A stretch of 64,000 nt of DNA from Pelagibacteraceae bacterium AG-349-E10 (GTDB taxonomy: Bacteria > Pseudomonadota > Alphaproteobacteria > HIMB59): the NCBI GenBank assembly GCA_003281065.1, contig QCDA01000001.1:1-64000 (forward strand). Direction: 5' to 3'. Numbering within the stretch: the stretch's first letter is position 1; every line of letters starts with the position of its first letter. Made by a program: the position numbers and the translations under genes. A model generated the notes under the pieces. That model was not told the origin of the DNA, did not search any database, and worked only from the letters and a program-made list of their open reading frames with translations. Shown here in pieces: positions 4,520-55,672 of this stretch.

Positions 4520-5896
4520 TTAGAACATTTTATTTGGCAACCAAGTTGCTATTTCAGGATAAAAACCAACAATTAAAATAGCTAATACTTGAATACCAAT
4601 GAAGGGAATTACCCCTCTGTACATGTTTCTAGTTTTAATACTACTTGGGGCCACTCCTCTTAAAAAAAATAAAGAAAATCCAAACGGAGGCGTTAAAAAA
4701 CTAGTTTGTAAATTGAGTGAAATAAGAATACCTAACCACAAAGGGTCTGCTCCGTTTGCTATCAATATTGGGCCAACTAATGGAACGATTACAAAAATTA
4801 TTTCGATATAGTCCAGAAAAAAACCTAATAGAAAAATTACTATCATTACTAAAATGAGTGCTGCATAAAGTCCACCAGGTAGAGTTCCAAGAAAATGCTC
4901 AATCATTTCATCACCACCAAAACCACGAAATACAAGTGAAAACATTGAGGCACCAATTAAAATTACAAATACAAAAGAGCTAAGTTTCACAGTTCCTAAA
5001 GCTGTCTCTTTAATATTCTTTAAATTCAATTCTCCCTTTAACAGTGCAATTATTGCAGCTCCAACAGCTCCTACTGAAGCAGACTCTGTGGGAGTAGCTA
5101 TTCCAAATAAAATTGAGCCTAAAACCAGCACAATAAGAGTTATGGGAGGCACAACTGATTTAGCAGCTTCAATATATATTTCAGTTCTTGATTTTGTAGT
5201 TTCGACTGGCGGGCAACTTAATGGATTTATTCTAGCGTAAATAAAAATAAAAATTATAAATAAAACTACTAACATCAATCCAGGTAGAATAGCACCTGCA
5301 AATAAATCAATTGCTGTAACTGGATCTGGAGCTAAATTACCAACTAACATCGCTGCTTCTTCATTTGCGCCTTGTAAAATTGTTGCCAGTAAAACTAAAA
5401 CAATTGAGGGAGGTATTATTTGTCCTAATGTACCAGCGGCACAAATTGTGCCTGTGGCTATTTTCTGATCATAGCCTGCTTTCATCATTGAGGGCAAAGA
5501 TAACATTCCCATAGTTACAACTGTTGCACCAACAATGCCTGTTGATGCAGCTAGCAACATACCCACTATTACAACTCCTATTCCAAGACCTCCTTTAGTA
5601 GTTCCAAAAAGTTCACCTATTGAATGTAATAGTCCTGCTGCAATTTTTGTTTTTTCTAACATTATTCCCATAAAAATGAATAGAGGCACAGCCACAAGGG
5701 GCTCATTAATCATTGTTCCAAAAATGCGTTGAGGAAAAAATCCTAGCATTCTGAAATTAAATATTTCTAGAGCATCTCCTAAAAATCCAAACAGAAGAGC
5801 TGTTCCAGCGAGTGTAAAAGCAACGGGAAAACCGAAAAGCAATAACCCCAATGTTGTTACAAACATTATAATTGCCAAAATTTCAGGACTAATCAT
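4520..5896 (-). CDS. TRAP transporter large permease, DctM family
   Basis: 458 aa, multiple TM segments, GATVVTMGMLSLPSMMKAGYD, TPTESASVGAVGA motif. Confidence 0.9.
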   Translation of the reverse strand: MISPEILAIIMFVTTLGLLLFGFPVAFTLAGTALLFGFLGDALEIFNFRMLGFFPQRIFGTMINEPLVAVPLFIFMGIMLEKTKIAAGLLHSIGELFGTTKGGLGIGVVIVGMLLAASTGIVGATVVTMGMLSLPSMMKAGYDQKIATGTICAAGTLGQIIPPSIVLVLLATILQGANEEAAMLVGNLAPDPVTAIDLFAGAILPGLMLVVLFIIFIFIYARINPLSCPPVETTKSRTEIYIEAAKSVVPPITLIVLVLGSILFGIATPTESASVGAVGAAIIALLKGELNLKNIKETALGTVKLSSFVFVILIGASMFSLVFRGFGGDEMIEHFLGTLPGGLYAALILVMIVIFLLGFFLDYIEIIFVIVPLVGPILIANGADPLWLGILISLNLQTSFLTPPFGFSLFFLRGVAPSSIKTRNMYRGVIPFIGIQVLAILIVGFYPEIATWLPNKMF

Positions 5897-6420
5897 GATT
5901 TATTATCAGACAAATGATAGTTTGAAAGTGTAAGTATTGATTTAATTACATTAGAGACTAATTGAAGAAATAAAACTAAACAAAACCATAGAATTGCACT
6001 TTTTAAAATATATAGTGCAGGCATACCGCCCGCTTCTCTGGAAACCTCTCCCATTAAAAAAGATCTATATACAAATGGATAGCTGTAATTCCAAATAATA
6101 TATAAAAAAGGTAGAAGTAAAAAAATATTTCCAAATAGATCTACAGTAGCTTTATATTTTTTTGATGCCTCTCGGTAAAAGACGTCTATTCTAACATGCT
6201 CATTAGCTAAATAAGTAAAACCAGCACCTAACATAAAAACAAAACTATGAAGCCAAACATAAACTTCTTGCATCCATATAAATCCAATATTGAACCCATA
6301 TCTTAAGACGACAACAGTGAATACAACTATGACCATAGAGAAAACAAAAAAAGCACATAGATATCCTATGATTGTATTAAATCGATCAATAAATTTGGAT
6401 ATTTGTGCCAAGGCAGACAT
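5893..6420 (-). CDS. TRAP transporter small permease, DctQ family
   Basis: 175 aa, 4 TM, WMQEVYVWLHSFVFMLGAGFTYLANEHVRIDVFY typical DctQ; overlaps dctM start. Confidence 0.88.
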   Translation of the reverse strand: MSALAQISKFIDRFNTIIGYLCAFFVFSMVIVVFTVVVLRYGFNIGFIWMQEVYVWLHSFVFMLGAGFTYLANEHVRIDVFYREASKKYKATVDLFGNIFLLLPFLYIIWNYSYPFVYRSFLMGEVSREAGGMPALYILKSAILWFCLVLFLQLVSNVIKSILTLSNYHLSDNKS

Positions 6421-6469
6421 AGCAGCAGATTATATATAGACAATAAACATATTAAAGAGAGTATATTGA

Positions 6470-6555
6470 TAGGTCGTGGTGCCAACTTTATATGAATAAA
6501 GCTTTCTCATGCGGGGTGAGATTCGGCACATTTAAACAAAAATGTTCACGACCTA
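6470..6555. ncRNA. Candidate structured RNA / riboswitch-like element (unassigned, strand uncertain)
   Basis: 9-bp closing stem TAGGTCGTG/CACGACCTA enclosing GTGCC/GGCAC, CTTTAT/ATAAAG, TCTCA/TGAGA and ACATTT/AAATGT helices. Confidence 0.45.
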
Positions 6556-6644
6556 ATTGAATTTTAATTGAATATAGGGCATTTTCAGAACCTTTATTTT
6601 AATGAATGGGCAATTTGATCAACATTTTTTCCACAGTCTTATTT

Positions 6645-6663: not shown

Positions 6664-6716
6664 TAATAAAATAATAGTTTTTTACTATAAGACATTTTTA
6701 AATATATTGCCTTTCT

Positions 6717-7082
6717 ATGGCTCCGATATCACCCCATTTGCAAATATATAGGCCTTTTTTGACAATGGTATTTTCTATCTCCAGCAGGATAGGAGTAATT
6801 GCATTTGCATTTTCTTTACCTTTTTTTGCAATTTGGTTAGGAAGCTTAAATTTTCTCCCTCAACTTAATCAAGTATTAACATTGTTGATAAACTTGATAC
6901 CTATAAGGCTAATATTTGTCTTTTGGTTTTTTATCTTTAATCATCATTTGTTAAACGGTTTTAAATATTTCTTATGGTCATTTTCAATTGGAATGGATCT
7001 TAAAAATGTCTACTTAGTGACATATCTTATTCTAGTAGCAAACATTATAATGACTTTAATTTTTACTTGGATGATATTTTAA
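6717..7082 (+). CDS. sdhC: Succinate dehydrogenase cytochrome b556 subunit
   Basis: SPHLQIYRPFLTMVFSISSRIGV and HHLLNGFKYFLWSF typical SdhC; directly upstream of sdhDAB. Confidence 0.88.
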   Translation: MAPISPHLQIYRPFLTMVFSISSRIGVIAFAFSLPFFAIWLGSLNFLPQLNQVLTLLINLIPIRLIFVFWFFIFNHHLLNGFKYFLWSFSIGMDLKNVYLVTYLILVANIIMTLIFTWMIF

Positions 7083-55534: not shown

Positions 55535-55571
55535 CTTCATATTTCTATTTAATACTGTTATAAGATAATTT

Positions 55572-55659
55572 GAGAATTACATGGGCAACATTTTATGCCA
55601 ATCCGGTCAGGTTCGAAAGAAAGCAGCCGTAACATAAGAGGTTGGGTCGTGTAATTCTC
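55572..55659 (+). ncRNA. ffs: Bacterial signal recognition particle RNA (small/4.5S type)
   Basis: Conserved core GGTCAGGTTCGAAAGAAAGCAGCC with GAAA tetraloop; closing stem gagaattac/gtaattctc. Confidence 0.93.
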
Positions 55660-55672
55660 CTTTGAGTCCGTT

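Follow-up and report, generated by a model that had tools for sequence, protein, structure and literature searches.

The 296 bases that separate the divergent genes dctQ (minus strand) and sdhC (plus strand) in a bacterium of the HIMB59 family contain a set of RNA helices that we read, with moderate confidence, as a stand-alone small RNA gene, the product of which would act in trans as an antisense RNA on ftsZ and lower FtsZ synthesis. This reading is backed here by a conserved structure, a minus-strand reading of that structure, a conserved -10 box, and the complementarity between an RNA loop and ftsZ together with its change between two families. The window, i.e. the whole stretch of 64,000 nucleotides that was analysed, belongs to a draft genome of 902,891 bases that is 68% complete; the closest complete relative (G001), a single contig of 1,410,127 bases, was taken as strain HIMB59.

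The core of the RNA consists of five helices arranged in two nested three-way junctions (Table 1). An earlier note on this DNA had named the helices GTGCC/GGCAC, CTTTAT/ATAAAG and TCTCA/TGAGA inside a 9-bp outer pair, and had placed them about 50 nt from the dctQ start and about 160 nt from sdhC; all of these helices were found in the sequence, and the distances were measured as 50 nt and 161 nt. On the plus strand, the outer helix reads TAGGTCGTG at 6470-6478 and CACGACCTA at 6547-6555, which makes a perfect 9-bp terminal inverted repeat, CTTTAT lies at 6486-6491 and ATAAAG at 6496-6501, and TCTCA (6505-6509) and TGAGA (6517-6521) enclose the loop TGCGGGG (6510-6516). The loop described as G-rich is so on this strand, whereas on the probable transcript strand it is C-rich (CCCCGCA). 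The element is, as described, a multi-helix RNA; its invariant letters are confined to a single hairpin, the loop of which is exposed, and do not lie in a junction. Compared with 200 shuffles, the fold had a z of -3.4 on the plus strand and -5.4 on the minus strand, and none of the 200 shuffles equalled it. The predicted RNA is about 85-95 nt long, a length that rises to about 130 nt in the family's deepest branch; in the deep-branching loci L046, L047 and L049, P1a is replaced by a longer branched arm with nine to ten well-matched closing pairs, as judged by eye.

Table 1. Features of the dctQ-sdhC region and the RNA of the sister family (f2), with the basis of each assignment
Feature	Position	Strand	Basis or remark
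Small RNA gene, core of about 84 nt, 5' end at about 6554	6471-6554	minus	fold, homologues, wobble bias
P1 5' arm, TAGGTCGTG	6547-6555	minus	partner 6470-6478; both-side changes at two P1 pairs
P1 3' arm, CACGACCTA	6470-6478	minus	partner 6547-6555
P1a hairpin, AAC-AUUUUU-GUU (plus strand: AAAC/GTTC)	6534-6547	minus	fold; three pairs changed on both sides
P2 5' arm, GTGCC (relatives GGNGCC)	6525-6529	minus	partner 6479-6483; three pairs changed on both sides
P2 3' arm, GGCAC	6479-6483	minus	both-side changes
P3 hairpin, UCUCA-CCCCGCA-UGAGA, most conserved part of the RNA	6505-6521	minus	loop invariant across all homologues
P3 loop, CCCCGCA, exposed; predicted to seed pairing with UGCGGGG, the ftsZ ribosome-binding site	6510-6516	minus	unpaired probability at least 0.99
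P4 hairpin, CUUUAU-UCAU-AUAAAG	6486-6501	minus	three pairs changed on both sides
Small RNA -10 box, TAAAAT (relatives TAnnAT, -13 from GG of P1)	6561-6566	minus	consensus scan
Small RNA -35 box, CTGAAA, weak, 16-nt spacer	6583-6588	minus	scan; C at -35 in 14 of 17
dctQ -10 box, TATAAT, 8 nt before ATG	6429-6434	minus	at 8-9 nt in most relatives
sdhC -10 box, TATATT, 8 nt before ATG	6703-6708	plus	leaderless-type start
dctQ, TRAP small permease subunit	5893-6420	minus	Pfam DctQ, E = 4.9e-16
sdhC, succinate dehydrogenase cytochrome b556 subunit	6717-7082	plus	TIGR02970 above cut-off
f2 RNA	L195:1493-1630	opposite to sdhC	also L190, L191, L194, L196-L199, L201

In a DNA search, the element was found in 42 of the 52 HIMB59-family genomes and always between dctQ and sdhC. 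Of the ten genomes in which it was missing, nine gave no genuine match to sdhA, and the remaining one has a contig that breaks off within sdhC; thus, the dctQ-sdhC locus is absent from these ten assemblies and there is no sign that the element was lost. R1, a covariance model built from the element, matched the genome of the window at G000:C1:6471-6554:- (E = 3.1e-18) and occurred as a single copy per HIMB59-family genome. Among 385 sampled alphaproteobacterial genomes, its matches were limited to the four that belong to the HIMB59 family; a sister family gave weak matches, at E 0.07 to 0.6, which on inspection were put down to chance. Viral contigs that contain the 15-mer CTCACCCCGCATGAG were scattered and missed the rest of the structure, except for L059, which gave a weak full-length match of 23 bits; a search with TGCGTTCCTCC, a poorly chosen query, was uninformative.

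The earlier note had asked for covariation in homologous upstream regions, and the 42 syntenic homologues do carry compensatory changes, in four helices. Among 26 distinct sequences, in an alignment that was fitted to the structure and is therefore biased towards it, 11 of the 28 pairs were changed on both sides compared with 4.9 +/- 1.4 in shuffles, and 92% of the cells were paired compared with 38-49% when the partners were slid; none of 500 shuffles reached either value. Alignment A3, made with MAFFT and without fitting to the structure, gave the same picture with eight pairs changed on both sides (0 of 500 shuffles). The changes are distributed over P1, P1a, P2 and P4, and those in P2 include UA to CG and GC to AU. 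P3 is almost without variation: no change was seen in its loop, and very little in its stem. A protein-coding reading was rejected: the minus strand of the window has an ATG-led frame, but the relatives lack the ATG and differ by indels of 1-2 bases, as judged by eye. In total, we conclude that the element is a conserved structured RNA and that its conservation exceeds chance.

Read on the minus strand, the pairs comprise 31 G-U as against 6 A-C combinations and, therefore, the RNA most likely lies on the minus strand. A hexamer at -13 matched TATAAT at a mean of 4.29 of 6 positions over 17 diverse loci, the highest value among the positions tested on both strands, whereas a plus-strand start lacked a conserved -10 box (best mean 3.24). 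The transcript start predicted from this box, at about 6554, is the exact base of P1. The combined promoter pattern CTGAAA-16-TAAAAT at 6588-6561 is of a kind for which about two chance sites are expected in a stretch of such size. A U-run follows P1 in several relatives but is missing in the window's own group, and in that group we found no clear terminator after P1.

No Shine-Dalgarno sequence precedes dctQ or sdhC. The position of the -10 boxes of both genes suggests that their mRNAs are leaderless and that the RNA gene lies outside both. Because these boxes lie 8-9 nt before the ATG, the RNA is probably a stand-alone small RNA and not a riboswitch leader. Genome-wide in HIMB59, TATAAT shows little enrichment at the leaderless position and, therefore, the leaderless argument rests on the conservation at dctQ and sdhC and not on a general rule.

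The region contains further conserved sites. A DnaA-box-like TTTTCCACA at 6627-6635 in the window occupies a nearly fixed spot, mostly 90 nt before sdhC, and in most relatives this is between the RNA promoter and sdhC; the sister family has TTATCCACA-like boxes at the corresponding spot. This box might tie the small RNA or sdhC to the cell cycle. Immediately 5' of the sdhC -10 box, at 6670-6695, there is a strongly conserved palindrome, TAATAG-TTTTTT-ACTATAA, a probable site for a regulator of the sdh genes. In L034 and L036-L041, DctQ is merely 64-67% identical to that of the window while SdhC is about 80% identical; in the more distant HIMB59 strain the order is reversed (DctQ 84%, SdhC 59%). 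An exchange of the TRAP genes, with the RNA retained, may explain this. Finally, L012:2218-2377 and L045:1-639 have sdhA fragments next to sdhC or sdhD in the wrong order, and these are probably assembly chimeras.

In a comparison of the window with Rfam (4227 families) at the gathering score, the sole match was an SRP RNA at 55571-55663. The dctQ-sdhC intergenic region searched at E up to 10 gave nothing sensible, and ten divergent relatives searched at E up to 1 gave no match. The earlier note had seen no fit to the TPP, SAM-II, SAM-V, ZTP, glycine, cobalamin or glnA motifs, and no Rfam family matched the element. Two specific candidates were rejected. DicF (RF00039) had no family-model match in the window, the intergenic region or the divergent relatives. 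6S RNA (RF00013) was absent from the matches in 12 genomes of the order, in a search that detected the Caulobacter control; moreover, the element is branched whereas 6S RNA is a long rod with a central bubble. As for a riboswitch expression platform, neither a terminator nor a ribosome-binding site was found before dctQ, and we regard a riboswitch reading as unlikely. We found no literature on small RNAs of HIMB59.

The P3 loop points to ftsZ. In the HIMB59 genome, its complement TGCGGGG occurs 20 times on both strands, and the sole occurrence near a gene start is at -12 of ftsZ. We called 1,426 ORFs in this genome and calculated the duplex energy of the loop with positions -30 to +5 of each ORF start; ftsZ ranked first among the 1,426 starts (-14.5 kcal/mol). 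With one flanking base added to the loop on each side, ftsZ ranked second, after a spurious ORF overlying a tRNA gene, and with the whole P3 hairpin as the query it dropped to rank 13. Several other ORF starts were within 3-4 kcal/mol of ftsZ, and the 5' end of the initiator tRNA (CGCGGGG) likewise fits the loop; the seed spans few bases, and any G-rich ribosome-binding site can be matched by a C-rich loop. GCGGGG was present in all 24 HIMB59-family ftsZ leaders examined, with varying adjacent letters and spacing. Three genomes of the family have CGCGGGG as the ftsZ site and an unchanged loop, which leaves 6 bp and not 7. The window's own draft genome had no ftsZ match and, therefore, the target was read in relatives that carry the same element: in G044 and G015, for example, in which the element is identical, TTTGCGGGGAAAAAA precedes the ftsZ ATG.

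The loop is predicted to be accessible, but joint folding of the whole molecules did not by itself favour a complex for the RNA of the window, because in the HIMB59 family the predicted fold of the ftsZ leader occupies part of the site. Conceivably, the ribosome that finishes ftsA just upstream might open this site. The small RNA gene is far from ftsZ, at 246.6 kb compared with 22 kb in G001. A tblastn search recognised no Hfq in HIMB59; an RNA that folds stably by itself and presents its loop ready for pairing would therefore be plausible.

The sister family, f2, has a different RNA in the corresponding place. It is about 140 nt long and lies about 200-250 nt upstream of sdhC on the opposite strand. 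Its P1 comprises about 7-10 pairs and is followed in most members by a T-rich stretch; the RNA further has a hairpin loop CCGCCGUUU or a variant of it, and the invariant motifs GUGUCUGCCAAGGUAC and GGAGGAACG. The strict pattern was present in 73 of the 110 f2 genomes, and no match was found for this RNA in Rfam. The f2 RNA points at the end of a convergent gene and, thus, is the leader of no gene there; the f2 orthologue of dctQ lacks such an RNA. The RNAs of the two families, which need not be homologous, resemble each other in place and orientation, in having a P1 where the transcript begins, and in a hairpin loop rich in C.

In f2, too, the loop fits ftsZ. The f2 ftsZ site AAACGGCGG is complementary to the loop CCGCCGUUU; in 10 of 10 genomes read, the site was AAACGGCGGAG, the perfect partner of CCGCCGUUU, or nearly so. 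Used as a query against 713 ORF starts, taken from 710 kb of genome G130 with the ftsZ of that genome added, the f2 loop again ranked ftsZ first. Given the first result, the chance that ftsZ comes first in a second family is about 1 in 700, as estimated from the ranks with all starts treated as equal, and this repeated top rank is the main argument for the proposed antisense mechanism. Duplexes of loop and ftsZ from the same family had energies of -15.1 and -16.8 kcal/mol; by contrast, the crossed duplexes were far weaker, i.e. -7.9 kcal/mol for the HIMB59 loop with f2 ftsZ and -10.7 kcal/mol for the f2 loop with HIMB59 ftsZ. Each loop is therefore suited to the ftsZ of its own family and not to that of the other. 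Seed and target changed together, from CCCCGCA/UGCGGGG to CCGCCGUUU/AAACGGCGG or the reverse, in what is one between-family comparison; loop and ftsZ site hardly vary inside each family and, thus, the co-change counts as one event. In the f2 RNA, predicted pairing inside the loop involves two of the nine seed bases, whereas the HIMB59-family loop is fully unpaired.

Among the alternatives, the strongest is a structured small RNA with another job, such as binding a protein or other mRNAs; its match to ftsZ would then be an accident, or just one among many. The P3 stem is conserved almost as strictly as the loop, which exceeds the needs of pairing with ftsZ, and both the ORF starts with energies close to that of ftsZ and the initiator tRNA would suit this alternative. 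We nevertheless consider it unlikely, as ftsZ ranks at the top in two families despite different letters in loop and target. A cis-acting leader of dctQM, i.e. a riboswitch or attenuator on a minus-strand transcript that starts from the promoter at 6561-6588, continues into dctQ and senses a ligand, would explain why the element adjoins dctQ in 42 of 42 genomes and why the transcript is aimed at this gene from 50 nt away with no strong terminator in between. However, dctQ has a conserved -10 box of its own and offers no ribosome-binding site for hiding, the invariant letters are confined to a hairpin loop, the f2 RNA faces the end of a convergent gene while the f2 dctQ orthologue is without an RNA, and the ftsZ match would have to be a coincidence in two families. 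We hold such a leader to be quite improbable. A sensor of metabolites that would couple organic-acid uptake or the TCA cycle, which the earlier note held to be plausible, likewise found no support, given the apparent promoters of both genes directly at their start codons, the lack of a leader role in the sister family and the loop that matches ftsZ.

That the element is instead a plus-strand RNA serving as a long sdhC leader fits its place 161 nt upstream of sdhC, and the plus strand folds too; this is very improbable in view of the wobble bias of 31 to 6 towards the minus strand, the lack of a conserved plus-strand -10 box (3.24 compared with 4.29) and the sdhC -10 box directly before its ATG. 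As to a palindrome at the DNA level or a mobile repeat with no RNA function, which the perfect terminal inverted repeat would allow, the single copy per genome at a fixed place, with no dispersed copies found, and the compensatory changes together with the wobble bias leave it with hardly any probability.

The preferred reading, that of a trans-acting ftsZ antisense RNA, has precedents. In E. coli, DicF from the Qin prophage (RF00039) acts in trans and represses ftsZ translation by pairing at the ribosome-binding site (PMC5069750). The likeness lies in the proposed action of the HIMB59-family RNA on ftsZ; DicF itself is unrelated. DicF is a 53-nt, prophage-borne, processed and Hfq-binding RNA, whereas the HIMB59-family RNA is encoded by a chromosomal single-copy gene, has five helices and a hairpin-loop seed, and belongs to a host without a recognisable Hfq. 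Because DicF blocks ftsZ in this way, the mode of action is known; what sets the HIMB59-family RNA apart from DicF is the molecule itself, with its structure and its seed of the loop type. We conclude that the small RNA family is previously undescribed and has no Rfam entry. EcpR1 of Sinorhizobium meliloti is a trans-acting alphaproteobacterial RNA that acts on cell-cycle genes (PMC4414408); its studied targets are gcrA and dnaA, and an ftsZ site predicted within the coding region was not confirmed. Its gene neighbourhood differs from that of the HIMB59-family RNA, and the two have no Rfam family in common. The ftsZ mRNA is also the proposed target of Yfr28 in Prochlorococcus, another streamlined marine host (PMC7368042), where the RNA is encoded opposite ftsQ-ftsZ; Yfr28 is thus antisense in cis, whereas the HIMB59-family RNA gene is distant from ftsZ. 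The conserved candidate structured RNAs of Pelagibacter (PMC2704228) are likewise situated in AT-rich stretches between the genes of a marine alphaproteobacterium with a streamlined genome; that paper names no motif linked to sdh or TRAP genes.

In the mechanism that we propose, the compact RNA would be transcribed from the minus strand by its own promoter, and the P3 loop CCCCGCA would meet UGCGGGG at -12 of the ftsZ mRNA to form 7 base pairs. The duplex would cover the ftsZ ribosome-binding site, block initiation and reduce FtsZ synthesis, by which cell division could be held back. Our judgement is evenly balanced on the wider proposition that, throughout the order HIMB59/AEGEAN-169, an sdhC-adjacent small RNA controls ftsZ translation without Hfq by means of a loop that co-evolves with its target, its body having been rebuilt while place, orientation and target were kept.

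HIMB59/AEGEAN-169 bacteria abound in surface waters of the ocean; their genomes are very small and encode few regulators. If the reading is correct, the joint change of seed and target would have made it possible, as is rarely the case, to name from sequence what an unknown bacterial RNA acts on. Moreover, an RNA dedicated to ftsZ would offer a direct and testable handle on how division is coupled to growth in such cells.
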